From Burkholderiaceae bacterium 26 (lineage in GTDB: Bacteria; Pseudomonadota; Gammaproteobacteria; Burkholderiales; Burkholderiaceae): a DNA stretch of 64,000 bases. Position 1 is the first letter of the stretch, and every line of letters starts with the position of its first letter. The DNA is taken from positions 186,001 to 250,000 of the forward strand of contig JYOB01000007.1 in the NCBI GenBank assembly GCA_000955795.1, given 5' to 3'. Below are positions 3,355 to 19,488 of the stretch, piece by piece. A program made the translations under genes and the position numbers. The notes beneath the pieces were generated by a model. The model ran no database searches, was not told the DNA's origin, and saw only the letters and a program-made list of their open reading frames with translations.

Positions 3355-4347
3355 TCAGACATACGCGTCCTCCGCCTTGCGGCCGATCGTGATCTCGCCT
3401 TCGTCGGCCAGGCGGCGCGCAACAACCAGGATTTCCTTTTGCTGCGCTTCGACTTCCGACACCTTGACGGGGCCCAGCACTTCCAGTTCTTCCTTGAGCA
3501 TCGTGCCGGCACGCTGCGACATGTTGGCGAACACCTTGTCGCGGAACTCCTGCTTGGCGCCCTTGAGGGCCACCACCAGAACGTCCTGGCTGATCTCGCG
3601 CAGCAGCGTCTGCAGCGCACGGCCGTCCAGATCGATCAGGTTGTCGAACACGAACATCTTCTCGACGATGGCATCGGCCAGTTCCGGATCGCGTGAGCGC
3701 ACGCCTTCGATGACGGAGCTTTCCACGGCGCTCGGCACCAGGTTGAGGATTTCCGCTGCCGTGAGCACGCCACCCATCGCGTTCTTCTTGCGATGGTCGT
3801 TGCCTTGCAGCAGCTTGGTCAGCACGTCGTTCAGCTCGCGCAGGGCGCTGGGCTGAATGCCGTCGAGCGTGGCGATACGCAGGATGGTGTCGTTGCGCAG
3901 GCGCTCGGTGAAATAGGTCAGGATTTCCGAAGCCTGATCGCGGTCCAGGTGGACCAGGATCGTGGCGATGATCTGCGGGTGTTCGTTGCGGATCAGTTCC
4001 GCCACCGACGATGCGTCCATCCACTTCAGGCCTTCGATGCCGCTGGTGTCGCCGCCCGAGAGGATGCGGTCGATGATATTGGCGGCGCGGTCGTCGCCCA
4101 GTGCCTTGCGGAAGACGGTGCGGATGTACTCGTTGGAATCCACGTCCAGCGGCAGGTCTTCGGCTTCGATGAAGAACGCGTCAAAGGCGTCGAGCACACG
4201 CTCGCGCGACACGTTCTTCAGCGCGGCCATGGTGGCGCCGAGCTTCTGCACTTCACGCGGGCCCAGGTGCTTGAGCACTTCGGCGGCTTCGCTTTCGCCC
4301 AGCGACATCATGAGGATGGCGCTGCGTTGGAGTCCTTCGGCGCTCAT
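3355..4347 (-). CDS. fliG: Flagellar motor switch protein FliG
   Basis: Rotor protein linking the MS ring (FliF) to FliM/FliN and taking torque from the stator through its C-terminal charged ridge. At 330 aa it is full length. It shows the N-terminal FliF-binding helices (LQRSAILMMSLGE), the EHPQIIATIL motif of the middle domain near residue 120, and the C-terminal torque region with alternating charges (RSRDPELADAIVEKMFVFDNL). Its ATG overlaps the fliF stop (ATGA), so translation is probably coupled. Confidence 0.98.
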   Translation of the reverse strand: MSAEGLQRSAILMMSLGESEAAEVLKHLGPREVQKLGATMAALKNVSRERVLDAFDAFFIEAEDLPLDVDSNEYIRTVFRKALGDDRAANIIDRILSGGDTSGIEGLKWMDASSVAELIRNEHPQIIATILVHLDRDQASEILTYFTERLRNDTILRIATLDGIQPSALRELNDVLTKLLQGNDHRKKNAMGGVLTAAEILNLVPSAVESSVIEGVRSRDPELADAIVEKMFVFDNLIDLDGRALQTLLREISQDVLVVALKGAKQEFRDKVFANMSQRAGTMLKEELEVLGPVKVSEVEAQQKEILVVARRLADEGEITIGRKAEDAYV

Positions 4348-6179
4348 TCGTTACTCACCCATTGTTTGATGACGGCCGCGACTGCGCGCGGGTTGCTCTG
4401 CGCCACGCGGCGCATGGTCTCGAGCTTCTTCTCGAAGTCGTTGTTCTTGAGTTGCGGCAACGCGTCCGGCAGATCTTCGGAATCGGCGCCGGCAGCCCCC
4501 GGGCCTTCCAGCTCCGGCCCGGCCGAAGCGGCGGCACCGGTGATGATCGGGGCGTTCGGGTCTTCGCCTTCGCGGCCGACGAAGGTGGGCGTTGCTGCCT
4601 CGGCCTTCTTGCCCATCGAGCGGATCGCCGGACGGATCACCGCGAACACCAGGATCAGGAAGCCGATTGCCAGCGCCAGATACTTGGCGGCCTGGATGGC
4701 GTACTGGATCATCTCCGGCTGCTTCCACAGCGGCAGGTCGTCCTTGGCCATCGGCAGCGTGCCCGAGAACTGGCTGTTGACCACGTTCACGGAGTCGCCG
4801 CGCTTGGCGTCAAAGCCCACGGCATCCTTGACCAGCGCGTTGAGGTTGGCCATCTCGGCTTCCGACAACGGCTTCCAGGTCTTGCCGTCGCCACGGTAGT
4901 TGACCACCACGGCCACCGACAGGCGGCGCACGGTGCCCACTGCGGCGCGGGTGCGGCGCACGGTCTTGTCGACTTCGTAATTGGTCGTGGTGTCGCGGGT
5001 GCTCGACGAGTTGCCGCTGGTTGCGGTACCGCTCGTGTTGGCAGCCGCCGCTTGTTGCGGTTGGCCATTCGGGCCGGTTGCCGCCGGTTGCGACGCCGAG
5101 GCCGGCGCCGGTGCGGTCGGCAACATGCGCGGCGCGGTCGGCGGTTGGTTGGACAGCGCGCCCGGCACGCCGCCCTGGGCGTCGGCCTTGTTCTGCGTGG
5201 CTTCAGCGGTGTGCGTGCTGCGCACGGCTGCGTTGGCCGGGTCCTGGTTCGGACGATACGTTTCGGCCATCTGCTCGGTGTTGTCCAGATCGACGTCGGC
5301 CGTCACCTGCGCACGCACGTTGTCCTCACCCACCACGGGGCCGAGGATGGCTTCGATGCGCTTGATATAACCCTGCTCGACGTCGCGCACATAGCTCAAC
5401 TGCGTCGGGTCAAGGCCCGAGGCGGTGTCCTGGAACGACGACGACAGCAGGCGACCCGATTGGTCGACCACCGTCACGTTGGCCAGCGGCAGGTTTGGCA
5501 CGCTGCTCGACACAAGGTGGCCAATGGCCTGCACCTGCGAGCGGTCGAGCATGCGGCCCGGATACAGCTTGAGCAGCACCGACGCACTGGGCTTGGCCTG
5601 CTCGCGCACGAACACCGACGGCTTGGTCATGGCCAGATGCACGCGGGCGGACTGCACCTCCTGCATGGCCTGGATGGTGCGGGCCAGCTCGCCTTCCAGG
5701 GCGCGCTGGTAATTGACTTGCTCGGCAAACTGGCTCGTGCCGAACTTCTGGTTTTCCATCAGCTCGAAACCGGCCTGGCCGCCCTTGGGCAGACCTTGCG
5801 AAGCGAGCTTCAGACGGGCTTCATGCACGCTCGTCTCGGGCACCATGATGGCGGTGCCGCCTTCGGCAAAGCGGTACGGCACATTCATTTGCTGCAGCGC
5901 AGCGATGATCGCCCCGCCGTCGCTGTCGGACACATTGCTGTACAGGACGCGGTAGTCCGGAGCGCGGCTCCACAGCATCGCGGCGGCAATGACAGCCACC
6001 AGCGCGGCACCGCCGATCATCAGCAGCAGTCGCGGCGACAGACGGCCGAGCGGGCCCAGGGCGCCCAGCGCACCTGCACCTCCCGCTTTCTGGCGCGTCA
6101 TCGCGCCCTGGCCCACCGCCGGCATATCAACCGTACCGAGCGTGTCGGCGACAGCAACCGAATCGGCTGTCGTTGGCAT
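4344..6179 (-). CDS. fliF: Flagellar MS-ring protein FliF
   Basis: Forms the inner-membrane MS ring on which the whole basal body is built. The 611-aa protein has an N-terminal transmembrane segment near residues 50-70 (LLLMIGGAALVAVIAAAMLW), the YscJ/FliF ring-building domains, a Pro/Ala/Gln/Ser-rich linker around residues 330-390 in the periplasmic part, a second transmembrane helix near 490-510, and a C-terminal tail ending AAVIKQWVSNE that binds FliG. AGGAG lies six bases before the ATG. It is the first gene of the fliFGHIJK operon and diverges from fliE across 282 bp that hold both promoters. Confidence 0.98.
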   Translation of the reverse strand: MPTTADSVAVADTLGTVDMPAVGQGAMTRQKAGGAGALGALGPLGRLSPRLLLMIGGAALVAVIAAAMLWSRAPDYRVLYSNVSDSDGGAIIAALQQMNVPYRFAEGGTAIMVPETSVHEARLKLASQGLPKGGQAGFELMENQKFGTSQFAEQVNYQRALEGELARTIQAMQEVQSARVHLAMTKPSVFVREQAKPSASVLLKLYPGRMLDRSQVQAIGHLVSSSVPNLPLANVTVVDQSGRLLSSSFQDTASGLDPTQLSYVRDVEQGYIKRIEAILGPVVGEDNVRAQVTADVDLDNTEQMAETYRPNQDPANAAVRSTHTAEATQNKADAQGGVPGALSNQPPTAPRMLPTAPAPASASQPAATGPNGQPQQAAAANTSGTATSGNSSSTRDTTTNYEVDKTVRRTRAAVGTVRRLSVAVVVNYRGDGKTWKPLSEAEMANLNALVKDAVGFDAKRGDSVNVVNSQFSGTLPMAKDDLPLWKQPEMIQYAIQAAKYLALAIGFLILVFAVIRPAIRSMGKKAEAATPTFVGREGEDPNAPIITGAAASAGPELEGPGAAGADSEDLPDALPQLKNNDFEKKLETMRRVAQSNPRAVAAVIKQWVSNE

Positions 6180-6461
6180 CCCAAATCTCCTGACTGACTA
6201 CGTTGCTTGAGCGCTCACCCAATGTCTGGGCATGGCTCCGTGGTTGCCATTATCGGCAGTGGGGGCGCAAGCAAATCGGCAAGAAGAGGGCCTTTTCCCG
6301 TTCTTTTGGGCGCTTGGGAACGACGGCTTGGCGGCTACCTTTGCATCACCGTGGCGCCATAGCGACCAACCGGCCGGGGTGGAAAGCCCCCAAGAAAGCC
6401 GGCCCAGGCAGCTAAGCAACGGCGCCGCAAGCAAGACAGAGAAAAGAGGAGCTTTCTTCAC

Positions 6462-6806
6462 ATGGATATTACGAACGCCAATTCAGTGGTCTCGCTGATG
6501 AACAGCGTGCTGGCGCCGTCCAGCACGGTGGGTGGCATTGGCGGGGGTGTCGGTTCGGCCACGGGCGACGGCGCCAAGGTCAGCGTGGACTTCGGGGCGG
6601 TGCTCAAGTCGTCGCTGGACCGGGTCGACGCGTCGCAGCAGAAGGCTGAATCCGTTTCGCGCAGCTTCGAAATGGGCAACAACGACGTGGATCTGCACGA
6701 CGTGATGCTCTCGCTGCAGAAGGCCAACATCGACATGCAGACCGCGGTGCAGGTGCGCAACAAGTTCGTCTCGGCGTACCAGAGCATCATGAGCATGTCG
6801 ATCTGA
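6462..6806 (+). CDS. fliE: Flagellar hook-basal body complex protein FliE, copy 1
   Basis: FliE joins the MS ring to the proximal rod and is needed early to open rod export. The 114-aa protein has the conserved FliE C-terminal half (SRSFEMGNNDVDLHDVMLSL to the end), with a Gly-rich variable linker near residues 24-38. GAGGAG lies ten bases upstream of the ATG. It diverges from fliF as in other Ralstonia and Burkholderia, but it is followed by a glycosyltransferase and sugar genes rather than more basal-body genes. A near-identical second copy lies at 16079. Confidence 0.97.
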   Translation: MDITNANSVVSLMNSVLAPSSTVGGIGGGVGSATGDGAKVSVDFGAVLKSSLDRVDASQQKAESVSRSFEMGNNDVDLHDVMLSLQKANIDMQTAVQVRNKFVSAYQSIMSMSI

Positions 6807-6842
6807 CGTCACTTTTTCTACGCTTTCTTTTCTTCGCGCCGC

Positions 6843-7952
6843 ATGTCCAAACACGCCAAACACCGCGCAAAGCCCGCCCGGGGCAGTCTTGCGCTGGTCG
6901 TCATCGCCCGCGACGAGGCCGCCTGCATCGAGCGCTGCCTGATGAGCGCCAAGCCGCACGTCGACCGCATGATCGTGCTGGATACCGGCTCGACCGACGA
7001 CACCGTGGCGATTGCCAAGGCGTGCGGCGCGCAGGTGCACCATTTCACGTGGGTGGATGACTTTTCCGCCGCCCGCAATGCCGCGCTCGCCGCCGCCAAT
7101 GCGGATTGGAACCTCGTGCTGGACGCCGACGAATGGATTGAAAGCGGCACGGACGAGCTGCGCGACGCCTGCACCTTCGGCCCGTTGCTGGGCGTGGTGT
7201 GCATCCGCAGCGGATTTGAAGTCTCAGGCAAGGTGGAGCAATCCAACAGCTGGATTGCGCGCCTGCTGCCGCGCGGCGTGCGCTACAAGGGCCGCATCCA
7301 CGAGCAACCCGATGCCGATCTGCAACGGGTCCGCCTGCCGCTGGTGATCGGCCACGACGGCTACTTGGACGTGAAGCTCGACAAGAAGCGCGGGCGCAAC
7401 CACACCCTGCTGCAGCTGGAGCTGGCCGCCCGCCCAGACGATCCGTACGTGCTTTACCAACTCGGCAAGGATTTCCAGATCAACCTGGGCGACGCCGCCC
7501 AGGCCGCCGAGTATTACCGGCGCGCCGTGGCGACGGCGCCCAAGCAGTCGCCCTATCGGCATGACCTGTGTATCTGCCTGCTGGCGTGCCTGAGCCAGAC
7601 CGGGCAGTTGGACGAGGCCATCACCCTTGCCGGTGAGTGGATGGACGAATGGTCTGGCTCGCCGGACTACTTCTACCTGCTCGGCCACCTGATGTTTGAA
7701 GCCGCCGCAAAACACCCGGCCCAGGCCGAAAAGCAGTGGCTGCCGATGGCGGAAAACGCGTTCCTGAAGTGCCTGGAGATTGGCGAGCAGCCCAAGCTGG
7801 ACGCTGCCGTGTTCGGGCGCGGCAGCTTTGCCGCCGCAAAGTACCTGGCGCTGACCTACCGCGCCCTGGCCGACACACTGGCCATCAAGTCGAACCAATA
7901 TTCCGACCTCGCGCGGCAGATGCAGGAACGCAGCGCAGTCGCCGCCGCATGA
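6843..7952 (+). CDS. Family 2 glycosyltransferase with TPR-like C-terminus (paralogue 1), probable flagellin glycosyltransferase
   Basis: The 369-aa protein starts with a GT-A fold: [17 protein letters not shown] near residues 19-35, [16 protein letters not shown], and the DxD-type metal site in [10 protein letters not shown] near residue 96. The C-terminal 150 residues are helical with TPR-like repeats ([27 protein letters not shown]), suited to binding a protein substrate. It follows fliE by 36 bp and has no strong Shine-Dalgarno. Proteins of this build beside flagellin genes modify flagellin in other bacteria; that role here is inference from context. A clear paralogue lies at 17501. Confidence 0.85.
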
Positions 7953-7962
7953 GCACGCAATC

Positions 7963-8736
7963 ATGAAGACAGTCATCCTGGCCGGGGGCCTCGGCACGCG
8001 CATCAGCGAGGAATCGCACCTGCGGCCCAAGCCGATGATCGAGATTGGTGGCCGCCCGATCCTGTGGCACATCATGAAGATCTATGCCGCGCACGGTATC
8101 AACGATTTCATCATCTGCCTCGGTTACAAGGGCTACGTGATCAAGGAGTACTTCGCCAACTACTTCCTGCACATGTCGGACGTGACGTTCGATATGTCGA
8201 AGAACGAAGTGACCGTGCATGAACGCCACGCCGAGCCCTGGCGCGTCACGCTGGTCGACACGGGCGAACAATCGCAGACCGGCGGGCGCCTGAAGCGCGT
8301 GGCCGCTTATCTGGACCCGAACGAGCCGTTCTGCTTCACCTACGGCGACGGCGTGTCTGACATCGACATCACCAGCAAGATCGCCTTCCACCGCGAGCAC
8401 GGCAAGATGGCCACCGTGACGGCCGTGCAACCGCCTGGCCGCTACGGCATGCTCCAGCGCGACGGCGCACGCGTGACCGGCTTTACTGAAAAGCCGCCCG
8501 GCGACGGCGGCAGCTGGATCAACGGCGGCTTCTTCGTGCTCAATCCGTCCGTCATCGAGTACATCGCAAGCGAAGACACCCCGTGGGAAGGCGCGCCAAT
8601 GGCACGCCTTGCCGAGATGGGCGAACTGAACACGTTCGAGCACCACGGCTTCTGGCAGCCGATGGACACGCTGCGCGACAAGAACAGTCTGGAAGCCCTT
8701 TGGCAAGCGGGGAGTGCACCGTGGAAAAAGTGGTGA
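7963..8736 (+). CDS. rfbF: Glucose-1-phosphate cytidylyltransferase
   Basis: Makes CDP-glucose from glucose-1-phosphate and CTP, the first step to CDP-linked 6-deoxysugars. The 257-aa product begins with the nucleotidyltransferase signature [13 protein letters not shown] and the downstream [19 protein letters not shown] block, specific to the cytidylyltransferase branch; the usual length is about 257 aa. It starts 10 bp after the glycosyltransferase stop and its last 16 bp overlap the next gene, as expected for a co-translated pathway pair. Confidence 0.95.
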
Positions 8737-9827
8737 CGCTCGACACGCGTGCGTGGGCTGGCAAGCGCGTCTTCCTGACCGGACATACCGGTTTCAAGGG
8801 CAGCTGGCTTGCGCTCTGGCTGCGCCAGCTTGGCGCCGAAGTGTATGGCTACAGCCTGGCACCGCAAACGCACCCGAATCTCTTTTCGCTGGCCGAGGTG
8901 GAATCCGCCATGGCCGGCCACACGCTGGGTGATATCCGTGACGCAGATGGCCTGCGTGCTGCCATGACCGCAGCGCGGCCCGACATCGTCTTTCACCTCG
9001 CAGCCCAACCGCTGGTGCGCGCGTCGTATCAAGACCCGGTCGGCACCTATGCCACCAATGTGATGGGCACCGTGAACGTGCTGGAGGCCGCGCGCGGCTG
9101 CACGAACCTGTCCGCCATCGTCGTCGCCACCACCGACAAGTGCTACGACAACCGCGAGTGGGCCTGGGGCTATCGCGAGACCGATGCACTCGGCGGCCAT
9201 GACCCGTACAGCGCATCCAAGGCCTGCGCCGAACTGGTGGCCGCAAGCTACCGGCGCGCCTTCTTCGCCAACGGCCCGCTGCTGGCCACGGGCCGCGCAG
9301 GCAATGTGATCGGCGGCGGCGACTGGTCCGAAGACCGGCTGATCCCCGACGCCGAGCGCGCGATGCGTGCCGGTGCGCCGCTGATCATCCGTTCACCTCA
9401 CGCCACGCGGCCGTGGCAACACGTTCTGGATTGCCTGCATGGGTACTTGGTGCTCGCGCAACGGCTGCTGGCCGGTGACGCGGCCTGTGCGACCGCCTGG
9501 AACTTCGGCCCGGACAGCGCCGCCACGCGCACGGTCGAACAGGTCTTGCAAGGCTTGCAACAACATTGGCCCACGCTGATCTGGCAACTGGACGCCAATG
9601 CCACCACCGGCAAGCACGAGGCCGGCATGCTGCATCTGGACGCCAGCCGGGCACGCCAGCAACTAGGCTGGCAGACAGCGTGCCCGTTCGAGACCGCGCT
9701 GGAACAGACCGCCGCGTGGTATCGGCATCTGCATGAAAAGACAGCGGGCGCACGCGCGCTCTGTGACCAGCAGATTGACCGCTTCACCGCCGTCGCGTCT
9801 GCTGCCACATCCAGGAGCGCCGCATGA
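8721..9827 (+). CDS. rfbG: CDP-glucose 4,6-dehydratase
   Basis: Converts CDP-glucose to CDP-4-dehydro-6-deoxyglucose. It is an extended SDR with the NAD-binding motif [10 protein letters not shown] near residues 20-29 and the catalytic YSASK (Tyr/Lys) in [13 protein letters not shown]. The frame is open upstream inside rfbF, but the GTG at 8721 is preferred because GGGGAG lies six bases before it, giving a 368-aa protein close to the family's usual 356-360. It overlaps rfbF by 16 bp and the next gene by ATGA. Confidence 0.95.
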
Positions 9828-10417
9828 GCCGTTTCACCATCCAACCGACACTGCTGGCCGGCGTGGTTGAAATCAGCCGCAAGGTCATGGGTGACCATCG
9901 CGGTTACTTCACGCGTTTCTTCTGTGCGGATGAACTTGCCGCCGCCGGCTTCGACAGCCCGGTCGCGCAGATCAACCATTCCTATTCGGCCAAGCGCGGC
10001 ACCGTGCGCGGGCTGCACTTTCAATACCCGCCGCATGCCGAGATCAAGCTCGTGAGCTGCGTGCGTGGCCGTGTCTTCGATGTGGCCGTTGACTTGCGTG
10101 CAGGCTCGCCAACGTTCCTGCAATGGCATGCGGTGGAGTTGTCTGCCGAACGCCACAACAGCCTGCTGGTGCCGCGCGGGTTTGCCCACGGCTTCCAGGC
10201 GCTGGAAGACGATTGCGAGCTTTTGTATCTGACCTCGACGCCGTACGCGCAAGCCGCTGAAGACGGGCTCAACCCGACCGACAGCCGCCTGGGCATTGCT
10301 TGGCCGCTGACCATTACCGAATGCTCCGACCGGGACCGCAACCATCCGCCGCTGACCGACGCGTTTGCGGGCATCACGCTGCGGGCCCTGAATCCTGAAC
10401 TGCAGGAACAGCCATGA
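9824..10417 (+). CDS. dTDP-4-dehydrorhamnose 3,5-epimerase-like sugar epimerase (RmlC family)
   Basis: The 197-aa cupin protein has the RmlC hallmarks: RGGYF-like DHRGYFTRFF near residue 26, NHSYSAKRGTVRGLHFQ with the catalytic His, VRGRVFDVAVDLR and the VPRGFAHGF segment. It would epimerise C3 and/or C5 of the 4-keto-6-deoxy sugar made by rfbG. Because the two preceding genes make a CDP sugar, the substrate is more likely CDP- than dTDP-linked. It is ATGA-coupled to both neighbours. Whether it epimerises one or two centres cannot be read from the sequence. Confidence 0.88.
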   Translation: MSRFTIQPTLLAGVVEISRKVMGDHRGYFTRFFCADELAAAGFDSPVAQINHSYSAKRGTVRGLHFQYPPHAEIKLVSCVRGRVFDVAVDLRAGSPTFLQWHAVELSAERHNSLLVPRGFAHGFQALEDDCELLYLTSTPYAQAAEDGLNPTDSRLGIAWPLTITECSDRDRNHPPLTDAFAGITLRALNPELQEQP

Positions 10418-11565
10418 CCCAAAAGATTCTGTACTCCAAGCCGTCGATCACCGAGCTGGAAGTCGAATACGCCACCGACGCCGCACGCAACGGCTGGGGC
10501 GACCAGTGCTACGCCTACATCAATCGCTTCGAAAAACAGTTTGCCGAGTTTGTCGGCACGCAATATGCCATTGCCACATCAAGCTGCACCGGTGCCATGC
10601 ACATGGGCTTGGCGGCGCTCGGCATCGGTGCCGGGGACGAGGTGATTCTGGCCGACACCAACTGGATCGCCACGGCATCGCCCATCACTTACGTGGGCGC
10701 CACGCCGGTGTTTGTCGACATCCTGCCGGACACGTGGTGCCTGGACCCGGCACTCGTGGAAGCGGCCATCACGCCGCGCACGAAAGCCATCATCGCTACG
10801 CACCTCTACGGCAACCTGTGCGAAATGGACCGCCTGCTGGACATCGGCAAGCGCCACGGCATTCCTGTCATCGAAGACGCAGCCGAAGCCATTGGCTCGC
10901 GCTGGCACGGGCATGCAACGGGCGCGCAAGGCATCTTCGGCACGTTCTCGTTTCATGGCACCAAGACCATGACGACGGGCGAAGGCGGCATGTTCGTCAC
11001 CAACGACCGCGCGCTGTACGACCGGGTGATGACGCTGAACAACCATGGCCGCGTACCCGGCGGCAAGCAGTTCTGGTCTGACTTCATCGGCTTCAAGTAC
11101 CGCATTTCCAACGTGCAGGCCGCCATCGGCTGCGCGCAGCTTGAGCGCATCGATGCACTGGTTGCACGTAAGCGCGAGATCTTTGCCGAGTATCAGGCGC
11201 ACCTGGGCAGCGTTGCCGGCCTTGCACTGAACCCCGAGGCGCCCGGCACGCTCAACAGCTACTGGATGCCCACCGTCGTGTTTGACGAAGCGCTGGGCAT
11301 TACGCGCGACGGGCTGTTGGCTGCGTTCTCGCGCCGCGGCATCGATGCCCGCGTGTTCTTCTATCCGCTGAGCGAAACCGGGCTGTTCGGCACGTCCGCC
11401 GCCACCGCGCGCCACAACGCGCCCAACAGCTACGCGATTGCCGAGCGCGCTATCAACCTGCCGTCGTATCACGACATGTCGAGCGAGAACATCGCGACGG
11501 TCTGCAACGTCGTGCTCGATCTCGTGAAAGCCCATCAGGAGACGCTGACATGCCTGGCATCCTGA
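10414..11565 (+). CDS. DegT/DnrJ/EryC1/StrS-family PLP sugar aminotransferase
   Basis: The 383-aa protein carries the family blocks: EKQFAEFVGTQYAIATSSCTGAM (phosphate binding), VIEDAAEAIGS with the PLP-nitrogen Asp near residue 155, and SFHGTKTMTTGEGGMF with the PLP lysine at about K184. The presence of that lysine separates it from RfbH-type 3-dehydrases, which have His there and also an iron-sulfur cluster. It should therefore transfer an amino group to the keto sugar, giving an amino-dideoxyhexose. It is coupled by overlap to genes on both sides (4 bp upstream, 16 bp downstream). Confidence 0.93.
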   Translation: MTQKILYSKPSITELEVEYATDAARNGWGDQCYAYINRFEKQFAEFVGTQYAIATSSCTGAMHMGLAALGIGAGDEVILADTNWIATASPITYVGATPVFVDILPDTWCLDPALVEAAITPRTKAIIATHLYGNLCEMDRLLDIGKRHGIPVIEDAAEAIGSRWHGHATGAQGIFGTFSFHGTKTMTTGEGGMFVTNDRALYDRVMTLNNHGRVPGGKQFWSDFIGFKYRISNVQAAIGCAQLERIDALVARKREIFAEYQAHLGSVAGLALNPEAPGTLNSYWMPTVVFDEALGITRDGLLAAFSRRGIDARVFFYPLSETGLFGTSAATARHNAPNSYAIAERAINLPSYHDMSSENIATVCNVVLDLVKAHQETLTCLAS

Positions 11566-12392
11566 GCCCCGATCAGATCGAGACCTTCCAGCGTGACGGC
11601 CTGCTGATCCTGCGCGACTTTTACGCGCCGTCGCAGGTGGAGCCGATTCAGCGAGCGATCTACGACATCATCGGTCTGGTGATCGACAAATACCGTCTCG
11701 ACATCGAGCGCGCGCCGTTTGCGCCCGAACGATTCGACGACGGCTATCAGGCGGTCATCAAAGCCAATCGAAAATACGGCGCCGAAGTGTACGACGCCGT
11801 GAAGCAGATCCCCGCGTTTGTCCGCCTGCTGGGCGACGAGCGCCATGAGCAGCTCGTTCGGAGCGTGCGCCCCGGCGCGCTGCCGGGCATTGCGCACGCT
11901 GGCTCCGGCATCCGCATCGATAACCCGCGTGAAGAGAAATTTCGCGCCAACTGGCATCAGGAATATCCGGCCCAGTTGCGCAGCCTTGATGGCGTGGTGT
12001 TCTGGAGCCCGCTGGTGGAGATCACGCCCGAGATCGGGCCAGTGGAGTTCTGCCCCGGCTCGCACGTGGAAGGGCCCCTGCCCGTCTTCAGCGCCGATCC
12101 GGACAACGCCGGCAAGCAAGGCGCCTATGCATTGCTGATCAAGAACGAGGCGAGCTATCTCGCGCGCTATCCGCACGTGCAGCCGCTGACCAAGCCGGGC
12201 GATCTGGTGATGGTCGACTTTCTGGTGCTGCACGCATCGGGCCACAACACGAGCCAGCGCTCACGGTGGTCGATGCAGTTTCGCTACTTCAATTTCTGCG
12301 AGCCGACCGGGCGCTCGCACGGTTGGAAGGGTTCGTACGCCAACGGCGTCGATTTCCGTACCGTCCACCCCGAACTCTCCGTGGAAGCCTGA
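11550..12392 (+). CDS. Phytanoyl-CoA dioxygenase (PhyH) family Fe(II)/2-oxoglutarate oxygenase
   Basis: The 280-aa protein resembles PhyH-family non-heme iron oxygenases. Candidate metal ligands are the H136-x-E138 pair in NWHQEYPAQL and a distal His in VLHASGHNTS (H228 or H232), followed by the Arg-rich strand SRWSMQFRYFNF that usually binds 2-oxoglutarate. It overlaps the aminotransferase by 16 bp and ends two bases before the methyltransferase ATG. In this setting it may hydroxylate or otherwise oxidise the sugar or its acyl group; the substrate is unknown. The HxE rather than HxD reading is from inspection only. Confidence 0.82.
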   Translation: MPGILSPDQIETFQRDGLLILRDFYAPSQVEPIQRAIYDIIGLVIDKYRLDIERAPFAPERFDDGYQAVIKANRKYGAEVYDAVKQIPAFVRLLGDERHEQLVRSVRPGALPGIAHAGSGIRIDNPREEKFRANWHQEYPAQLRSLDGVVFWSPLVEITPEIGPVEFCPGSHVEGPLPVFSADPDNAGKQGAYALLIKNEASYLARYPHVQPLTKPGDLVMVDFLVLHASGHNTSQRSRWSMQFRYFNFCEPTGRSHGWKGSYANGVDFRTVHPELSVEA

Positions 12393-12394
12393 CC

Positions 12395-13570
12395 ATGACC
12401 CAAGGTGCACTGCCCTGCAATGTCTGCCAGCAACCGCTGCCAGAACCGATTTACCGCGCAGCGCCGCAGAGCTCGCTGTCGTCCCTGCGCCGCGCCATGG
12501 ACGGCACGCTCGAGGTCTTCTGCTGCGCCGCGTGCGGCCACATCCAGACCGTCGAGCTGTGTGACAACGGCAGCTTCTACGACACCGAGTACGACATCCT
12601 CGTGGGCAGCGAGGAGGAAGACCAGATTTACGCCGTCGAGAACGGCCAGAAGATCTTCCGCGCCGACCACCAGGTCGCCACGTTCCAGCGCAAGCTCGCC
12701 TTACCGGAAGGTGCGCGCGTCGTCGACTTCGGTTGTGCGAAGAGCGCGACCATGCGCCTGCTGAAGCAGCAGCGTCCGGACGTGAACGTCCACCTGTTCG
12801 ACATCAGCGACCGCTACGTGGGCTTCTGGGAGAAATTCCTGAGCCCCGAGCAATGGGCCACGTACACGATCCCGCCGGCATGGCAGCGTTCGTTCGATGT
12901 CGTCACCTCGTTCTTCTCGCTGGAGCACATCCCAGACCTGAAGACGGCGCTGCGCAGCATCCACGGCCTGCTGCGCGACGGCGGCCGCCTGTACGCCATC
13001 GTGCCGAACACATTCACCAATTCGGTGGATTTTCTGGTGGCTGATCACGTCAACCACTTCACGCATACGTCGCTGCAGACGCTGCTGGCCAATCACGGGT
13101 TTGACCTGCTCGAGGCCGATGCGCAAAGCCACCGTGGCGCGTTCGTCGTGACCGCCGTGCGCCGTCCTGGCGACAGTAAAGTCGCGCCGGTGGTCGACGC
13201 ACAAGAATTGGCCGACACACAAAGCGCAGCCAACAAGCTGGCCAACTTCTGGCAGCAAGCGTCCAGCCATCTGACCGACTTTGAAACGCAGCACGGCAGC
13301 GCGCCTGCCGTGATCTATGGCGCCGGTTTCTATGGCGCCTACACCGCGAGCAATCTGCAACAGCCTCATGCCCTGCGCGCGTTTGTCGATCAGAACCCGT
13401 ACCTGCAAGGGTCCTCCCTGGCAGGTAAGCCGGTTGTTGCGCTGGACAGCATTCCGGATGAGGTTGAAGTGGTGTACCTGGCCGTCAACCCTGTCATTGC
13501 CGATGAAGTGCGGCACACCGTGGAAGCCGCGTATCCGAATCGCTTCCGCTATTTCCGCTTCCAGCCATGA
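12395..13570 (+). CDS. Class I SAM-dependent C-methyltransferase with N-terminal zinc-binding domain
   Basis: The 391-aa product has the three-part build of NDP-hexose C-methyltransferases such as TylCIII: a zinc-binding N-terminus with Cys pairs CNVC (residues 8-11) and CAAC (44-47), a SAM domain with VVDFGCAKSATMRLL and the FFSLEHIPD stretch, and a C-terminal Rossmann-like domain with VIYGAGFYGAYTA. Such enzymes methylate a carbon next to the keto group of a nucleotide sugar. The frame extends upstream, but the ATG at 12395 is chosen because it follows the previous stop by two bases and places the Cys pair at the N-terminus. Confidence 0.88.
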   Translation: MTQGALPCNVCQQPLPEPIYRAAPQSSLSSLRRAMDGTLEVFCCAACGHIQTVELCDNGSFYDTEYDILVGSEEEDQIYAVENGQKIFRADHQVATFQRKLALPEGARVVDFGCAKSATMRLLKQQRPDVNVHLFDISDRYVGFWEKFLSPEQWATYTIPPAWQRSFDVVTSFFSLEHIPDLKTALRSIHGLLRDGGRLYAIVPNTFTNSVDFLVADHVNHFTHTSLQTLLANHGFDLLEADAQSHRGAFVVTAVRRPGDSKVAPVVDAQELADTQSAANKLANFWQQASSHLTDFETQHGSAPAVIYGAGFYGAYTASNLQQPHALRAFVDQNPYLQGSSLAGKPVVALDSIPDEVEVVYLAVNPVIADEVRHTVEAAYPNRFRYFRFQP

Positions 13571-14082
13571 TCGCGCGCGGCTCACTCGTCCTTCGAGAAT
13601 GGCGCGAGAGCGACATCGCGCAACTGCTGCCGTTGCGCAACGACGTGCCGACGCAGCTGCAGCTCATGACGCGCCCGCGACCCAACTCGGCCGCGAGCGT
13701 GCGCGACTGGCTGATCGCGAAATCCAAGCAGAGCGACCTGGTGCTCTTTGTCATTGCCAGCCAGGCAGATGACAGCGTGCTGGGCTACCTGCAGTTGAAC
13801 CACATCGATGCGGTGAACAGGCACGCTTCGCTCGGCATCTGCCTGTCGTCGTCCGCGCAAGGCAAGGGCCACGGGCGCGCCGCATGCGAAGCCGTCTTTG
13901 CTTACGCCAGCGAAACGCTGTGTCTGCGCAAGATCACGCTGGAAGTGCTGGCCGAAAACACACGCGCCATCGCGCTATACGAGAAGCTCGACTTCCGGAC
14001 CATCGGCACGTTGGCTGGCCACTACCTACAAGACAACCGCTGGCACGACGTTGTCCTCATGGAACGGATGCTGGCGTCATGA
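13567..14082 (+). CDS. GNAT-family N-acetyltransferase
   Basis: The 171-aa protein is a RimJ/RimL-type GNAT: an N-terminal RGSLVLREWRESDIAQLLPL block, LGYLQLNHIDAVNRHASLGI strands, an acetyl-CoA loop SSSAQGKGHGRAA near residues 98-110, and the C-terminal NTRAIALYEKLDFRTIG. It overlaps both neighbours by ATGA. In this operon the natural acceptor would be the amino group placed by the aminotransferase, giving an acetamido sugar; that is inference from context. Confidence 0.9.
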   Translation: MIARGSLVLREWRESDIAQLLPLRNDVPTQLQLMTRPRPNSAASVRDWLIAKSKQSDLVLFVIASQADDSVLGYLQLNHIDAVNRHASLGICLSSSAQGKGHGRAACEAVFAYASETLCLRKITLEVLAENTRAIALYEKLDFRTIGTLAGHYLQDNRWHDVVLMERMLAS

Positions 14083-14795
14083 AGGTCGTGATCACACAAC
14101 CGATGCTGTTCCCGTGGGTCGGGCTGCTTGAGCAGATCATGCTGGCCGACGTGCTCGTCAATTACGCCGACGTGCAGTTCTCCAAGGGCAGCTTCACCAA
14201 CCGCGTGCAGATCAAGGAGCCGGCCGGCACGCGCTGGATGACGGTGCCGCTGGAGAAGTTCCACCTCGGCGCGCGCATCGACGAGGTCAAACCCGCCACC
14301 AACGTTGACTGGCGCGCGCAGCATCTGCGCATGCTGGAGCAGGCCTATGAGGCCGCGCCGCATGCAGGCGACATGCTGGCGCTGGTGCGCTCCGTGTACG
14401 AAGCCGACTACCCGAACATGGGCGCTCTGGCACTGGCGTCCATGCGCGCGGTGTGCCGCTACCTGGGCATCGAGCTGGACAGCAAGTTTGTCGATTCGCC
14501 TGAACTGGACATTCCCGGCCGCAATACCGATCGCGTGCTCGCGATCGTGCAGAAGCTGCAAGGCGATACCTACATCACCGGGCACGGCGCCAAGAACTAC
14601 CTAGCCCATGCCGAGTTCGAGCAGCACGGCATCGCCGTCGAATACATGAACTACGCCATGCGGCCGTATCCGCAACTGCATGGTGCGTTCACCCCGTTTG
14701 TCAGCAGCCTGGACCTGATTGCCAATCACGGCCCAGCCGGCAAGCAGTACATGTGCCCTCAGACCCTCCACTGGCGCGAGTTCATCCATGAGTGA
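14079..14795 (+). CDS. WbqC-like family protein
   Basis: The 238-aa protein begins MKVVITQPMLFPWVGLLEQI, the typical opening of the WbqC family, followed by the conserved FSKGSFTNRVQIK and the YITGHGAKNYL segment. WbqC proteins recur in O-antigen, capsule and flagellin-glycan loci; their chemistry is poorly defined, with proposals of a role in acylating or modifying amino sugars. The start is set by the ATGA overlap with the GNAT gene although the frame is open further upstream. It overlaps the next gene by 8 bp. Confidence 0.88.
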   Translation: MKVVITQPMLFPWVGLLEQIMLADVLVNYADVQFSKGSFTNRVQIKEPAGTRWMTVPLEKFHLGARIDEVKPATNVDWRAQHLRMLEQAYEAAPHAGDMLALVRSVYEADYPNMGALALASMRAVCRYLGIELDSKFVDSPELDIPGRNTDRVLAIVQKLQGDTYITGHGAKNYLAHAEFEQHGIAVEYMNYAMRPYPQLHGAFTPFVSSLDLIANHGPAGKQYMCPQTLHWREFIHE

Positions 14796-16062
14796 GATCG
14801 AAGCAATCCAACCCGAAGCGCTGCAGGACGTTGCGCCCGTGAAGCATGGCGAGGTCATCCAGCAGGTTGCGTTGAGCGTCTGCATCCCGACCTACAACCG
14901 CGCCCGCTACCTCGACAACCTGCTTGCAGAACTCGTCTCGCAGATTGGCGAACTGAAGTTCAGCTACGAACTGCTGATCGGCGACAACTGCTCGACCGAC
15001 GCCACCGAAGAGGTCGTCGGCCGCTACCAAGACAAGCTGAACATCCGGTATTTCCGCCGCCCGTCCAACCTGGGCTCGGCAGAAAACCTGAACCAGCTCT
15101 ATCGCAGCGCGCAGGGCAAGTACGTGCTCTACCACGCCGATGATGACCTGCCGATCCTGGCCGAGATCAACAACAACATCGACATCTTCGAGCGCAACCC
15201 GGGCGTGGATGTCATCTTTGCGCCGTGGTTCATTCACGACTTGCCGACGCGGCAGGATGTCACCGCGTTCTATCGCCAGGACGACAACTACCTGATCGAG
15301 CAGCACGACTACGCCAAGCTGCTGGCGCTGGTCTTGTCGCACCACCTGTTTCCGGAGATCTACCTGGCACGCCGCGAGGTGATGGACCGCATCTACTTCA
15401 GCGCGCCGGAACACGCGTTCTACGCGTTCGTACACGCGGCAGAAATGCTCGGCTCCAGCGCCGTGTACTTCAGCAAGACGCCGTTCTATCGGTCGGTCTC
15501 ACGCTACTTTGCCGACGAGACCCGCGCCCAGGCCGGCAACGAAGAAGTGAAGCATGCGTGGGACCGGTATCGCGGCGGTCTGGAATACCTGTTCGGCAAG
15601 TTTTCGCACACGCTGCCGGCAGCCGAGCGCCCGGAGTGGCTGAACGCCATCAACCAGTTTGTGCTGGCGCGCATGAAGGTCGCGCTGCGCCTGCGCACGC
15701 ATGAAGGCGGCAACTGGATCGACAACTATTACATCGCCAACCGCGTCCGCGCGCTGGGTGAAGTGTCCGATCTGCCCGCGCCGTATGACCTGTACCGCGT
15801 CAACGCGGCGTTCGAATACCTGACCAAGCTCGACCCGTTCAAGCCCGAGCCGCCCAAGTACGCCACCCTGCGCCGCGCGCCGCTGCAGGTCTTCCACCAC
15901 GCGCACGGCTTTGCCGAAACCGAGTTTCTGGTGCTCGACGATGATGCCGCCATTCCGCATCACACCATCGTCGTGACGCCGATTCCGATGGACATTGCGG
16001 TGCCGGCCGGCCGTGAAGTCCGCTTCGTATCGGAACTCGAAACGCTCGCCAAATTCCCCTGA
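14788..16062 (+). CDS. Family 2 glycosyltransferase
   Basis: The 424-aa protein has a GT-A domain with LSVCIPTYNRARYLDNLL near residues 30-47, GDNCSTDATEEV, and YVLYHADDDLPI with the DxD metal motif near residue 118. The C-terminal 200 residues are unlike the TPR tails of the other two glycosyltransferases here. The ATG at 14788 overlaps the wbqC-like stop; upstream in-frame codons lie inside that gene. Position at the end of the sugar block suggests it transfers the finished sugar, to flagellin or to a sugar already placed on it. Confidence 0.87.
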   Translation: MSEIEAIQPEALQDVAPVKHGEVIQQVALSVCIPTYNRARYLDNLLAELVSQIGELKFSYELLIGDNCSTDATEEVVGRYQDKLNIRYFRRPSNLGSAENLNQLYRSAQGKYVLYHADDDLPILAEINNNIDIFERNPGVDVIFAPWFIHDLPTRQDVTAFYRQDDNYLIEQHDYAKLLALVLSHHLFPEIYLARREVMDRIYFSAPEHAFYAFVHAAEMLGSSAVYFSKTPFYRSVSRYFADETRAQAGNEEVKHAWDRYRGGLEYLFGKFSHTLPAAERPEWLNAINQFVLARMKVALRLRTHEGGNWIDNYYIANRVRALGEVSDLPAPYDLYRVNAAFEYLTKLDPFKPEPPKYATLRRAPLQVFHHAHGFAETEFLVLDDDAAIPHHTIVVTPIPMDIAVPAGREVRFVSELETLAKFP

Positions 16063-16078
16063 GTCACGTCACGCCAAC

Positions 16079-16408
16079 ATGGACCTCTCCAACGCCAATT
16101 CCGTGGTCTCGCTGATGAACAGCGTGCTGGCACCGGCAAGCGCCGTCGTCAGCAGCACCGCCGGCGGCGATGCCGGCAAACCCAGCGTCGACTTCGGCTC
16201 CGTGCTCAAGTCGTCGCTGGACCGTGTCGACGCTTCACAGCAAAAGGCCGAAACCATTTCGCGCAGCTTTGAGATGGGCAACAACGACGTCGACCTGCAC
16301 GACGTGATGCTCTCGCTGCAAAAAGCCAACATCGACATGCAGACTGCCGTGCAGGTGCGCAACAAGCTGGTCTCGGCTTATCAAAGCATCATGAGCATGT
16401 CGATCTGA
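16079..16408 (+). CDS. fliE: Flagellar protein FliE, copy 2
   Basis: The 109-aa protein is a second complete FliE. Its last 60 or so residues differ from copy 1 (6462-6806) at only about three positions, while the DNA differs at many third positions, so both copies appear to be under selection. The central linker is shorter and different (SAVVSSTAGGDAGKP). The ATG at 16079 aligns with the copy-1 start; it follows the glycosyltransferase stop by 16 bp. The two copies are direct repeats bracketing the sugar island. Confidence 0.95.
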   Translation: MDLSNANSVVSLMNSVLAPASAVVSSTAGGDAGKPSVDFGSVLKSSLDRVDASQQKAETISRSFEMGNNDVDLHDVMLSLQKANIDMQTAVQVRNKLVSAYQSIMSMSI

Positions 16409-16470
16409 GATCACGCCCCTCCGCCCTTCTCTACGTTCCGGAAGAGGGTTTCCGGTTGTCCTTGCCATTT

Positions 16471-16486
16471 ATATTGCGCACAATAT
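16471..16486. promoter_or_regulatory. Candidate OhrR operator: inverted repeat ATATTG-CGCA-CAATAT
   Basis: A perfect 6-bp-arm inverted repeat with a 4-base spacer, followed by a further AATTGCGC that repeats half of it directly (16488-16494 region). It sits 78 bp before ohr in an AT-rich patch that is otherwise rare here. MarR-type OhrR regulators bind such AT-rich palindromes at ohr promoters, and ohrR is the next gene. Assignment is by position and shape only. Confidence 0.6.
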
Positions 16487-16563
16487 AATTGCGCCATCGA
16501 TTTTAAGATCGATTCCCGGCCGACGTGTCGCCGACCGGGCTTCCCATATAAGAGGACCCGACC

Positions 16564-16986
16564 ATGAAGACGCTCTACCAGACCCAAGTCACCGCTGAAG
16601 GCGGCCGCGCCGGCCATGTTCGCAGCGCCGATGGCACGCTGGATCTGCCCCTGTCGCTGCCACGCGAACTCGGCGGCGCCGGCGGTGCCGCCACGAACCC
16701 GGAGCAACTATTTGCCGCCGGTTATGCCGCCTGCTTTGAAAACGCTGTGCTGCATGTTGCACGTGGCAAGCAGATCAAGCTGGCGTCGACATCGGTCACG
16801 GCCACGGTGGGCATTGGCCCGCGCGAAGATGGCGGGTTTGCGTTGACAGTGTCGCTGGCTGCCACCCTGGGCGGCGTGGATCAGGCGACGGCGGAGGCGC
16901 TTGTGGCTGCCGCGCATGGTGTATGCCCCTATTCGCATGCCGTCCGTGGCAATATTGACGTCCAATTGAACACGGTCACGCGCTGA
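16564..16986 (+). CDS. ohr: Organic hydroperoxide resistance protein (Ohr subfamily of OsmC)
   Basis: Thiol peroxidase that reduces organic and fatty-acid hydroperoxides with lipoyl-protein or similar thiols. The 140-aa product has both redox cysteines, C57 in AAGYAACFENAV and C121 in VCPYSHAVRGN, the NPEQLFAAGYAACF block typical of Ohr rather than OsmC, and a conserved Arg near residue 20. AGAGGA lies upstream of the ATG. It has its own promoter region after fliE copy 2 and is followed by ohrR, so it is probably a stress-defence pair unrelated to flagella. Confidence 0.95.
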   Translation: MKTLYQTQVTAEGGRAGHVRSADGTLDLPLSLPRELGGAGGAATNPEQLFAAGYAACFENAVLHVARGKQIKLASTSVTATVGIGPREDGGFALTVSLAATLGGVDQATAEALVAAAHGVCPYSHAVRGNIDVQLNTVTR

Positions 16987-17060
16987 GCCTCGCTTAGCCC
17001 TTTTCGGGCCGATGCGGCACTCGCCGCTCGGGCGCCAGACCGTCCCCCCGGGAGTTTTCC

Positions 17061-17504
17061 GTGAACGACGTGCTGGCGCTCGATCAGCAGCTTTGCTTTC
17101 CTTTGTATGCCGCCGGCCATTTGCTGACGCGCCTCTACCGCCCGCTGCTGGATGAACTGGGCCTGACCTACCCGCAATACCTCGTGATGCTGGCGTGCTG
17201 GCAGCAGGCGCCGTGCGCTGTGGGTGACCTCGGCCGCACGCTGTACCTCGATACGGGCACGCTGACGCCGCTGCTCAAGCGCCTGGAAGAACAAGGCCTC
17301 GTCACCCGCACGCGCGATCCCGATGACCAGCGCCGCGTCGTTATTGAGTTGACCGATGCCGGTCGCACGCTACGCGAACGCGCCGCCAAGGTGCCCGAAG
17401 CGCTTGCGTGCAAGATTCCGCTGGAACGCGATGAAATTGGCGCCACGCGCAACGTACTGCGCAAGCTACTCGACGCCCTCGCCACGGCGGAGGACCGCGA
17501 ATGA
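17061..17504 (+). CDS. ohrR: Organic-hydroperoxide-sensing MarR-family regulator OhrR
   Basis: The 147-aa winged-helix protein starts with the OhrR signature LALDQQLCFPLYAAGHLLTRLY; the single N-terminal Cys (C12 by this start) is the peroxide sensor. The wing (TRTRDPDDQRRVVIELT) is that of MarR proteins. The start is GTG with a GGGAG six bases upstream. It would repress ohr and itself until the Cys is oxidised. Its stop overlaps the following glycosyltransferase ATG (ATGA), which is unusual and is discussed in the findings. Confidence 0.94.
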   Translation: MNDVLALDQQLCFPLYAAGHLLTRLYRPLLDELGLTYPQYLVMLACWQQAPCAVGDLGRTLYLDTGTLTPLLKRLEEQGLVTRTRDPDDQRRVVIELTDAGRTLRERAAKVPEALACKIPLERDEIGATRNVLRKLLDALATAEDRE

Positions 17505-18583
17505 GCGCCCCGTCCGCTTCCGCCGATGTGGCGTTGGTCGTCATCGCCCGCAATGAAGCCGCCAGCATTGCGCGCTGCCTGCTGAGCGCGAAGCCGTTTG
17601 TCGATCGCATGGTGGTGCTGGATACGGGCTCCACGGATGACACCGTGGCCATTGCCCAGTCGTGCGGCGCGCTCGTCAGCCACATGGGCTGGACGAACGA
17701 CTTTTCGGCCGCGCGCAACACCGCACTGCAGGCTGCCAATGCCGACTGGAACCTCATCCTCGACGCTGACGAATGGCTGGAAAGCGGCGGCGAACATCTG
17801 CGCACGCTCAGCGGTGCCGAGCCGGCCGTCGGCGTGGTGTGCGTCAAGAACGATACCGATGCGGCCGAAGCCGCCAGCCAACTGATTGCGTGGATCCCGC
17901 GTGTGCTGCCCCGTGGCGTGCACTACACGGGGCGCATTCACGAGCAGCCCGTGTCGTCATTGCCTGCGGCGCGCGTGCCAATCGTGGTGCGCCACGACGG
18001 CTATACCGCGGCCAAGATGCAGAAGAAAGGCGAGCGCAATATGCAACTGCTGCTCGATGAACTCGTGCACAGGCCGGACGACCCGTATGTGCTGTATCAG
18101 CTCGGCAAGGAAACCGAACTGCATCACGAAGACTACGCGAAGGCCGTGAATTACTACGCACGCGCCTTCAGCCTTGCGCCGCCTGATGCGCCGTACCGCC
18201 GCAACCTGACGCTGCGCTATGTGTATAGCCTGGGCAAGGCCGATCGCGTTGAAGAGGCGCTCGCGCAAGGCGATGTCGCCATCCAGACGTGGCCAGATTT
18301 TCCGGACCTTTGTTTTGCGCTGGGATTGGTCTTGCTGGATGCGGCGGCCCGGCACCCTGATGAGGCGAGTGCCCGGTGGCTACCGCTGGCAGAACAGGTC
18401 TTCAACCGCTGCCTTGAGATCGGCGATCATCCGGAGATGGACGGCAGCGTCGTCGGCCGGGGCAGCTTCCTCGCTGCCCAGCAACTGGCGATCGTGTACC
18501 AGATGCAGAGCCACGCGCTCGCACGCAAGTCCGAGCACTATCTGACGCTGTCAAAACAACTGCAGGACGCTTCGTCTCAGTAA
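17501..18583 (+). CDS. Family 2 glycosyltransferase with TPR-like C-terminus (paralogue 2)
   Basis: The 360-aa protein matches the 6843 gene across its whole length: [57 protein letters not shown] (metal site near residue 90) and the C-terminal [12 protein letters not shown] repeats. ATGA overlap with ohrR sets the start and implies translational coupling. It converges on fliT, with the two stops overlapping by 7 bp. Like its paralogue it is a good candidate flagellin glycosyltransferase, lying beside the fliTSDC genes. Confidence 0.85.
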   Translation: MSAPSASADVALVVIARNEAASIARCLLSAKPFVDRMVVLDTGSTDDTVAIAQSCGALVSHMGWTNDFSAARNTALQAANADWNLILDADEWLESGGEHLRTLSGAEPAVGVVCVKNDTDAAEAASQLIAWIPRVLPRGVHYTGRIHEQPVSSLPAARVPIVVRHDGYTAAKMQKKGERNMQLLLDELVHRPDDPYVLYQLGKETELHHEDYAKAVNYYARAFSLAPPDAPYRRNLTLRYVYSLGKADRVEEALAQGDVAIQTWPDFPDLCFALGLVLLDAAARHPDEASARWLPLAEQVFNRCLEIGDHPEMDGSVVGRGSFLAAQQLAIVYQMQSHALARKSEHYLTLSKQLQDASSQ

Positions 18584-18933
18584 CGCGCCATGCTGCCGTA
18601 AGCGTTGCTTGCGGTGGTGGCGCGGCGCGCCGTGTCGATACGCTTTTGCAGGCGGTCCAGGCGCGGATACACCATGGCGCGCACGCGGGCGTCATCTTCC
18701 AGAATACGTACTAGCAGCGTGCGCTTGCGCTCCACATCTGCGCGCGAGAGCTGCGGATGCGGCTCGGAACGGCGCAGTGCGTCCACGTAAGCGGCGCTCT
18801 CGCGTTCAAGCGTACTGACGACTTCCCAGTTACCCACTTCGGCCGCGCTGACCATTTCGGCGGTCAGGCGTGCGATGGCTTCGTAGCAGGTGAACAGACT
18901 TTCGCTGTCCTTGATCGGGATGTTGCGGTGCAT
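18577..18933 (-). CDS. fliT: Flagellar export chaperone FliT
   Basis: A small helical protein (118 aa from the ATG at 18933, chosen for the GGAG five bases upstream) just after fliS, where fliT normally lies. FliT is the chaperone for the cap protein FliD and in enteric bacteria also restrains FlhDC. The sequence is alpha-helical with a mid-region basic helix (RADVERKRTLLVRILEDDARV) as in FliT, but family members are weakly conserved, so position carries much of the call. It overlaps the convergent glycosyltransferase by 7 bp. Confidence 0.8.
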   Translation of the reverse strand: MHRNIPIKDSESLFTCYEAIARLTAEMVSAAEVGNWEVVSTLERESAAYVDALRRSEPHPQLSRADVERKRTLLVRILEDDARVRAMVYPRLDRLQKRIDTARRATTASNAYGSMARY

Positions 18934-18990
18934 ATTGGCTCCAGTTGGGCCGAATTCAGTCAAAGGTCGCTTTACTAAAACGACCAGCAA

Positions 18991-19428
18991 TCAACTCACA
19001 ACGCTCAGGTGGCTGTTCGCCACGGCGGCGCCAGGCTGGCCCATCTGGCCAATGGCGAGCCACGCATCCTGCAGCGGGACCAGCAAGCCATCCACTTCTG
19101 CAAGGATCGTCAGATCGTTGTTGCCGTTGGCCACCAGCAGGCGGCGCAGCATGTAGTCGTACAGCGTGTTCAGTTGCACGGCGATGTCGCCGCCGCGCTG
19201 GTGATCAAGGCTGGCCTGCAGGCCCTGGCCGATGATCGAGATGGCCTTGTCAAACGCCCTCACCTTGGCCAGCACGTCACCACGCTGGATGGCAGCGCCA
19301 GCCAGGTTGATGGCGGCGCGCGCCCCTTCAAACAGCATGGCAATCAGGCGGTGCGGATTGGCGTCTACCACGGACGTCTCGATGCCGACTTGCGCATAGG
19401 CACCGATGGCACGGCGTGCAGCGTACAT
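18991..19428 (-). CDS. fliS: Flagellin export chaperone FliS
   Basis: Binds the C-terminus of newly made flagellin and delivers it to FlhA. The 145-aa product has the FliS signature: an N-terminal Tyr/Ala segment (MYAARRAIGAYAQVGIETSV), PHRLIAMLFEGARAAINLA, and the DYMLRRLLVANGNND helix. It follows fliD by 60 bp in the fliDST unit. The downstream gene is fliT. Confidence 0.95.
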   Translation of the reverse strand: MYAARRAIGAYAQVGIETSVVDANPHRLIAMLFEGARAAINLAGAAIQRGDVLAKVRAFDKAISIIGQGLQASLDHQRGGDIAVQLNTLYDYMLRRLLVANGNNDLTILAEVDGLLVPLQDAWLAIGQMGQPGAAVANSHLSVVS

Positions 19429-19488
19429 GGAAAAGGTCCTCGCTGTAGTCTGTTTTGTTTTGGGTTGTGCTCTAAACCTGAACCTGGC

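Follow-up and report, generated by a model that had tools for sequence, protein, structure and literature searches.

Why should a flagellar gene cluster carry two fliE genes, and why should they stand at either end of a set of sugar genes? The question is raised by a 64,000-nucleotide stretch of the Ralstonia genome Burkholderiaceae bacterium 26 (contig JYOB01000007.1, positions 186,001 to 250,000; hereafter the window), in which one fliE gene (fliE1) precedes and another (fliE2) ends a run of nucleotide-sugar and glycosyltransferase genes. An earlier note on this DNA proposed that the two genes recombine as direct repeats and loop out the island, as an on/off switch of flagellin modification. 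We find that the pair is real, old, stably kept in 13 of the 16 genomes sampled from the genus and under selection, and that the switch is not supported. Judging from sequence alone, we consider it probable that a unit of fliE and a glycosyltransferase gene was duplicated in the distant past, and that fliE2 now closes a flagellar glycosylation operon, in which it persists as a diverged FliE isoform.

Both genes are full length and lie on one strand (Table 1), as had been observed before. Both pass the TIGR00205 fliE model (cut-off 30 bits) and the cut-off of PF02049, and they are the only PF02049 matches in the whole 5.68-Mb genome. For fliE2 we took the ATG at 16079 as the start, matching the start of fliE1; the mechanical list of open reading frames begins this frame further upstream, at the TTG at 15995. 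The proteins share 93 of 114 residues (BLASTP, E 3e-65), and 275 of 327 aligned bases of the genes are identical (84.1%), with repeat blocks of 249 nt at 87% and 70 nt at 84%. "Near-identical", the wording of the earlier note, is somewhat strong for this level of DNA identity. In the conserved half the differences are mainly synonymous, as previously stated (proportion of synonymous differences, pS, 0.418; of nonsynonymous differences, pN, 0.023). Each copy has its own type of linker. Five columns of the longest fliE1 linker are missing from fliE2, and the residues that follow read PSVDFG in all 13 fliE2 genes and VSVDFG in all 15 fliE1 genes of the genus sample. Both genes are predicted to encode complete rod-base FliE subunits.

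The 9.3-kb sugar-nucleotide island reported between the copies is present. The interval spans 9,272 bases and holds ten closely packed CDP-sugar and glycosyltransferase genes on the same strand, with overlaps at six of the nine junctions by the coordinates used. Base composition does not set the interval apart, its GC content of 0.61-0.67 in 1-kb windows falling within the 0.54-0.69 of the whole window. The island sits inside the flagellar cluster, between fliF/fliE and fliT-fliS-fliD, and the product of the flagellin gene further on is the putative target of the encoded glycan.

We compared the locus across 16 Ralstonia genomes, including that of the window (G000), with one genome per species. 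At least two fliE genes were found in 13 genomes, one in two (G001 and G009) and none in one (G002). In all 13 two-copy genomes the bracketing, the gene order and the orientation are as in the window, and the two copies lie 9.6-11.7 kb apart, start to start. The PhyH gene of the island occurs in exactly these 13 genomes (with a second, weak match in G008) and is missing from the other three. The G002 genome is 97% complete, and its lack of a FliE match reflects either a non-flagellate organism or a gap. Two genomes, G003 and G010 (loci L052 and L051), carry one further fliE, the third in each, which is divergent and lies next to a distant fliF (~30% identity), apparently as part of a second flagellar system.

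Elsewhere in the family the arrangement differs. We searched 398 genomes drawn evenly from a larger group, including the 16, and obtained a match in 313. Regions from other Burkholderiaceae likewise have fliE adjoining a divergent fliF, but with a single fliE per region (all 17 outgroup regions); in 11 of these, matches resembling fliT, fliS and fliD lie beyond fliE. The 36 multi-copy genomes outside the genus contain 75 matches. Unlike the Ralstonia pair, their second copies are not close on the same contig: the closest same-contig pair is ~184 kb apart (G150), and several copies lie on short contigs and might yet have a close partner.

The pair is older than the sampled genus, because the most basal genome has both copies. 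In a tree of FliF and FliG, G013 branches first, outside all other sampled members (97/94), followed by G001. The single-copy genome G009 groups with nine two-copy genomes (100/99) and has therefore lost fliE2; G001, placed between two-copy lineages, most simply lost it as well. In the whole-gene fliE tree all 13 fliE2 sequences form one group (bootstrap 83), and the topology that separates the genes copy by copy scores best.

Purifying selection acts equally on the two genes. Among orthologues of the 13 two-copy genomes, pN/pS is 0.155 for fliE1 (95% codon bootstrap 0.091-0.231) and 0.156 for fliE2 (0.101-0.226), or 0.074 and 0.095 without the linker. Within genomes the two copies differ with a dN/dS ratio (omega) of 0.096-0.187 at dS 0.46-0.78; the pair of the window has dS 0.68, dN 0.076 and omega 0.112. 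The suggestion that both copies look functional is supported by this selection on each and by their joint retention in 13 of the 16 genomes. The earlier note had also named in advance two findings that together would speak against its proposal, namely relatives that all keep both copies with no island-less form, and a lack of transcription or relaxed selection in one copy. Most relatives do keep both, and no island-less form was seen among the 15 genomes with the locus, but selection is relaxed in neither copy.

The two single-copy genomes show what replaces fliE2. In G009, fliE1 is followed by rfbF-, rfbG- and rfbC-like genes (68-75% protein identity), a C-methyltransferase and a CmcI-type methyltransferase, and then by a GT2-like gene (51%; GT, glycosyltransferase), a hexapeptide protein, an epimerase and two GT1/GT3-like genes, up to the MarR gene; neither ohr nor fliE2 was found in the stretches read. 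G001 is a metagenome-assembled genome (90% complete) whose locus is split over two contigs with the middle part missing. One contig carries fliE1 and GT1 and ends in the start of another gene, and the second opens with the tail of another gene immediately ahead of ohr, the usual place of fliE2, both edge genes being seen as partial frames. Thus, among the 15 locus-bearing genomes, fliE2 and the cassette (judged by PhyH) occur together in 13 and are both absent from two. Because both single-copy genomes have other genes at the place of fliE2, this gene behaves as part of the cassette.

This co-occurrence also bears on the possibility that fliE2 is a redundant yet working leftover of the entry of the cassette, in which a circle with fliE and sugar genes integrated by a single crossover to give fliE-island-fliE. 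The layout equals the product of such an integration, and fliE2 is indeed absent from both locus-bearing genomes without this cassette. However, a redundant copy should drift, and we find the pN/pS of fliE2 equal to that of fliE1 and its copy-specific linker end conserved in every fliE2. We regard this origin as rather unlikely.

Excision through the fliE repeats, leaving one fliE and an unglycosylated flagellum, is highly improbable in light of the same genomes. We found no bare form, with one fliE directly before ohr/ohrR, in any of the 15 locus-bearing Ralstonia genomes, one per species; the search for relatives with a single fliE and no island, which the earlier note had recommended, thus yielded none. 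A plasmid collection, from which records close to the genome of the window may be missing, contained no Ralstonia record, and rare excision among strains of one species is compatible with this sampling. Other genes stand at both single-copy sites, and G001 keeps GT1 beside fliE. Nor are the flanking repeats long and near-identical: the copies are 83-87% identical over the 13 genomes, with longest perfect runs of 24-69 nt (29 nt in the genome of the window), and are therefore not homogenised repeats. These runs do lie near or above the RecA threshold of ~25-30 nt, in direct repeats, and the single fliE genes of G009 and G001 combine a fliE1-type 5' half with some fliE2-like sites in the 3' half. 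The replaced flank of G009 would also be compatible with a past loop-out followed by a new cassette. A loop-out scar in these two genes was nevertheless rejected: the 26 diagnostic sites in G009 alternate without a single switch, several fliE2-like sites are also present in the fliE1 of G013 and may be ancestral, and the flanks do not fit, an rfbF-like gene following the fliE of G009 and GT1 that of G001. Finally, a Pfam search identified no recombinase or integrase among the ten island genes.

The earlier note had alternatively assigned the copies to different basal bodies, which is unlikely in this genome. Of its three PF01514 matches only that of the window (248 bits, 617-aa frame) has a frame long enough for FliF; the remaining two score 103 and 85 bits in frames of 374 and 261 aa. 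No second flagellar FliF was found by this search.

The cassette does recombine, by exchange of alleles within GT1 and as far as the end of GT2. Comparing G006 with G000 and G008 with G004, identity is 75-86% at ~+660 to +1260 from the fliE1 start, inside GT1, and 91-100% elsewhere; G008 and G007 are 97-99% identical at +900 to +1380. Between G007 and G008, identity is 80% until ~200-300 bp before fliE2, where it climbs to 97-99%, and it stays at 96-99% through fliE2. The 3' half of GT1 is a mosaic with at least two allele classes, whose distribution in G001, G006 and G008 disagrees with the FliF/FliG tree; the GT1 allele of G001 nests with those of G000, G004, G005 and G015. Such patterns could mean that fliE2 and the 3' end of GT2 form a conserved right border for cassette swaps between strains and are kept for that reason. 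The identity rise before fliE2 and the conflicting GT1 alleles would fit, but this role needs no selection on the protein sequence, and ohr/ohrR past fliE2 would serve as well, so we consider it very unlikely.

Exchange between the two fliE copies is weak or old at best. In the conserved half, fliE1 and fliE2 show a pS of 0.395 within genomes and 0.408 across genomes, and by synonymous sites of this half the fliE2 nearest to a given fliE1 is that of its own genome in only three of 13. General ongoing conversion was therefore rejected, a run test falling below 0.05 in just two of the 13 genomes, uncorrected.

Taken together, we propose that in the ancestor of the sampled Ralstonia a unit of fliE and a family-2 glycosyltransferase gene underwent duplication in the interval from the divergent fliF/fliE promoter to the fliT-fliS-fliD block; a single event affecting the whole unit would be the simplest reading. 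The unit is suggested by GT1 and GT3, which a tree identifies as old paralogues that split before the sampled genus diversified and each of which follows one fliE in the 13 two-copy genomes. Each is represented once in 14 genomes (these 13 and G001), and the two GT1/GT3-like genes of G009 fall outside this scheme. The CDP-sugar cluster would then have come to separate the two units, with ohr/ohrR placed within the second of them, which accounts for the order fliE1-GT1-[eight sugar genes]-GT2-fliE2-ohr-ohrR-GT3. Of the two copies, fliE1 retains the ancestral site, with a conserved upstream region and a strong ribosome-binding site. The fliE2 product is most likely a retained and partly specialised isoform, because both copies are under purifying selection and each has its own conserved linker. 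It would be inherited with the cassette and lost when the cassette is replaced, and the cassette itself changes, at least partly, by allele exchange rather than by excision through the fliE repeats.

Expression signals point the same way without proving it. Predicted pairing with the 16S rRNA tail is -7.8 to -8.6 kcal/mol for fliE1 in 14 of 15 genomes (-3.1 in G013) and -2.2 to +0.6 kcal/mol for fliE2 in all 13. These values are compatible with transcriptional read-through from fliE1 and with translational coupling of fliE2 to GT2, on both of which fliE2 expression probably relies. A promoter scan of positions 6000-19000 returned one site against a shuffle mean of 2.7, which is below chance and no proof.

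Several results weigh against this interpretation. The co-loss of fliE2 and the cassette amounts to two events rather than fifteen independent ones, and one of the two is the incomplete, split locus of G001. A whole-gene tree arranged by clade is 25.8 log units worse, yet it is not quite rejected (approximately unbiased, AU, test 0.059). The conserved-half tree joins the two copies of G013 (97) and places the single fliE of G009 with clade-A fliE2 (88), and for this half the copy-by-copy tree falls 16.8 log units behind without being rejected (AU 0.084). These conflicts fit some old gene conversion and possibly a hybrid origin of the G009 fliE. Long runs shared by the two copies occur in two of 13 genomes (G011 and G015; uncorrected p 0.02). 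Ribosome-binding sites are equally poor before GT1 and GNAT in the window, and the missing site of fliE2 is therefore not special.

Table 1. Features of the fliE locus in the window, in window coordinates
Feature	Position	Strand	Details
fliG	3355-4347	-	beyond fliF; presumed from gene order, plus synteny, not from a family search
fliF	4344-6179	-	divergent from fliE1; PF01514 match G000:C42:191442-191966
fliF-fliE1 intergenic region	6180-6461	.	short blocks identical in 15/15 aligned genomes; AAAAGAGGAG ribosome-binding site at 6442-6451
fliE1	6462-6806	+	114 aa; copy at ancestral position; TIGR00205 95.3 bits; adjoins divergent fliF as in the outgroup regions
GT1	6843-7952	+	family-2 glycosyltransferase, weak TPR matches; PF00535; paralogue of GT3 (tree, repeat D1)
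rfbF-type glucose-1-phosphate cytidylyltransferase	7963-8736	+	TIGR02623 458 bits, cut-off 300
rfbG-type CDP-glucose 4,6-dehydratase	8742-9827	+	TIGR02622 490 bits, cut-off 278; 8742 (GAC) is the edge of the stretch used, not a start codon; true start somewhat upstream
rfbC-type sugar 3,5-epimerase	9824-10417	+	PF00908
DegT/DnrJ/EryC1 sugar aminotransferase	10414-11565	+	PF01041; below every NCBIfam cut-off
PhyH-type dioxygenase	11550-12392	+	PF05721
Methyltransferase	12395-13570	+	PF13489
GNAT acetyltransferase	13567-14082	+	PF13302
WbqC-like protein	14079-14795	+	PF08889
GT2	14788-16062	+	family-2 glycosyltransferase; PF00535
fliE2	16079-16408	+	109 aa; last gene of run; 16 nt past GT2 stop; no good ribosome-binding site; TIGR00205 98.1 bits
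Terminator-like hairpin 3' of fliE2	16438-16455	+	consensus scan only; 16 such sites in region vs shuffle mean 10.8
Sigma-70-like promoter before ohr	16462-16489	+	TTGCCA-16-TATAAT; 11/12 matches; sole promoter-like site in 6000-19000
Ohr-family peroxiredoxin (ohr)	16564-16986	+	TIGR03561 179.5 bits, cut-off 88.85
MarR/OhrR-type regulator	17061-17504	+	best match NF052638 167 bits, under cut-off 200
GT3	17501-18583	+	paralogue of GT1 (tree); PF00535
Far border of locus	18577-21537	-	fliT position 18577-18990 (label presumed from gene order); fliS 18991-19428, above TIGR00208 cut-off; fliD-like 19489-21537, best FliD match under its cut-off
Flagellin gene	21735-22556		

Two further features of the locus vary within the genus. 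An ohr/ohrR-type pair (16564-17504) lies inside the flagellar locus; in the stretches read, G003, G009, G010 and G011 gave no match to ohr but retain the MarR gene. In G007 a CmcI-type O-methyltransferase gene (L042 11248-11994; PF04989), which the window lacks, lies between WbqC and GT2. G014, G011 and G013 have ~0.8-kb gaps at this place, the PF04989 match having been tested, among these four, in G007 only.

Flagellin glycosylation islands are already known, and they are located in the flagellar locus. Those of Pseudomonas, Aeromonas, Enterobacteriaceae and Geobacillus likewise combine nucleotide-sugar and glycosyltransferase genes and vary between species, as far as the available parts of the published accounts describe them. 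The Ralstonia cluster differs from them in being closed by a duplicated rod gene, and we know of no island flanked by a rod-gene pair. A literature search by titles and the openings of abstracts, made in part on partial lists, gave no report of a fliE pair for Ralstonia among the matches listed. The accessible part of PMC13063649 names fliC, fliL, motA and motB as flagellar genes that are often multi-copy; fliE is not among these four.

According to the available part of PMC12403130, one FliE protein fills six rod positions in Salmonella, and these positions, on FliP/FliR, are not equivalent. Salmonella FliE belongs to the same family; one protein serves there, whereas two isoforms are encoded in Ralstonia. 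Because the six positions differ, there may be room for two isoforms. In a more speculative version, which we consider distinctly unlikely, a mixed rod base would contain both, and synthesis of FliE2 would require translation of the operon's last glycosyltransferase gene, tying the start of the rod to readiness for flagellin glycosylation.

Each flagellum needs about six molecules of this rod-base protein (six in Salmonella, in the accessible part of PMC12403130), and across the genus its gene is kept as two diverged, equally constrained copies. The genome of the window has one flagellar FliF yet two FliE proteins, the second of which is encoded in a glycosylation cassette. Should both be in use, the first layer of the rod would consist of two isoforms, and rod assembly would be linked genetically to flagellin modification. 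Otherwise the locus would neatly exemplify an old duplicate that persists through its linkage to an exchangeable cassette for surface sugars.

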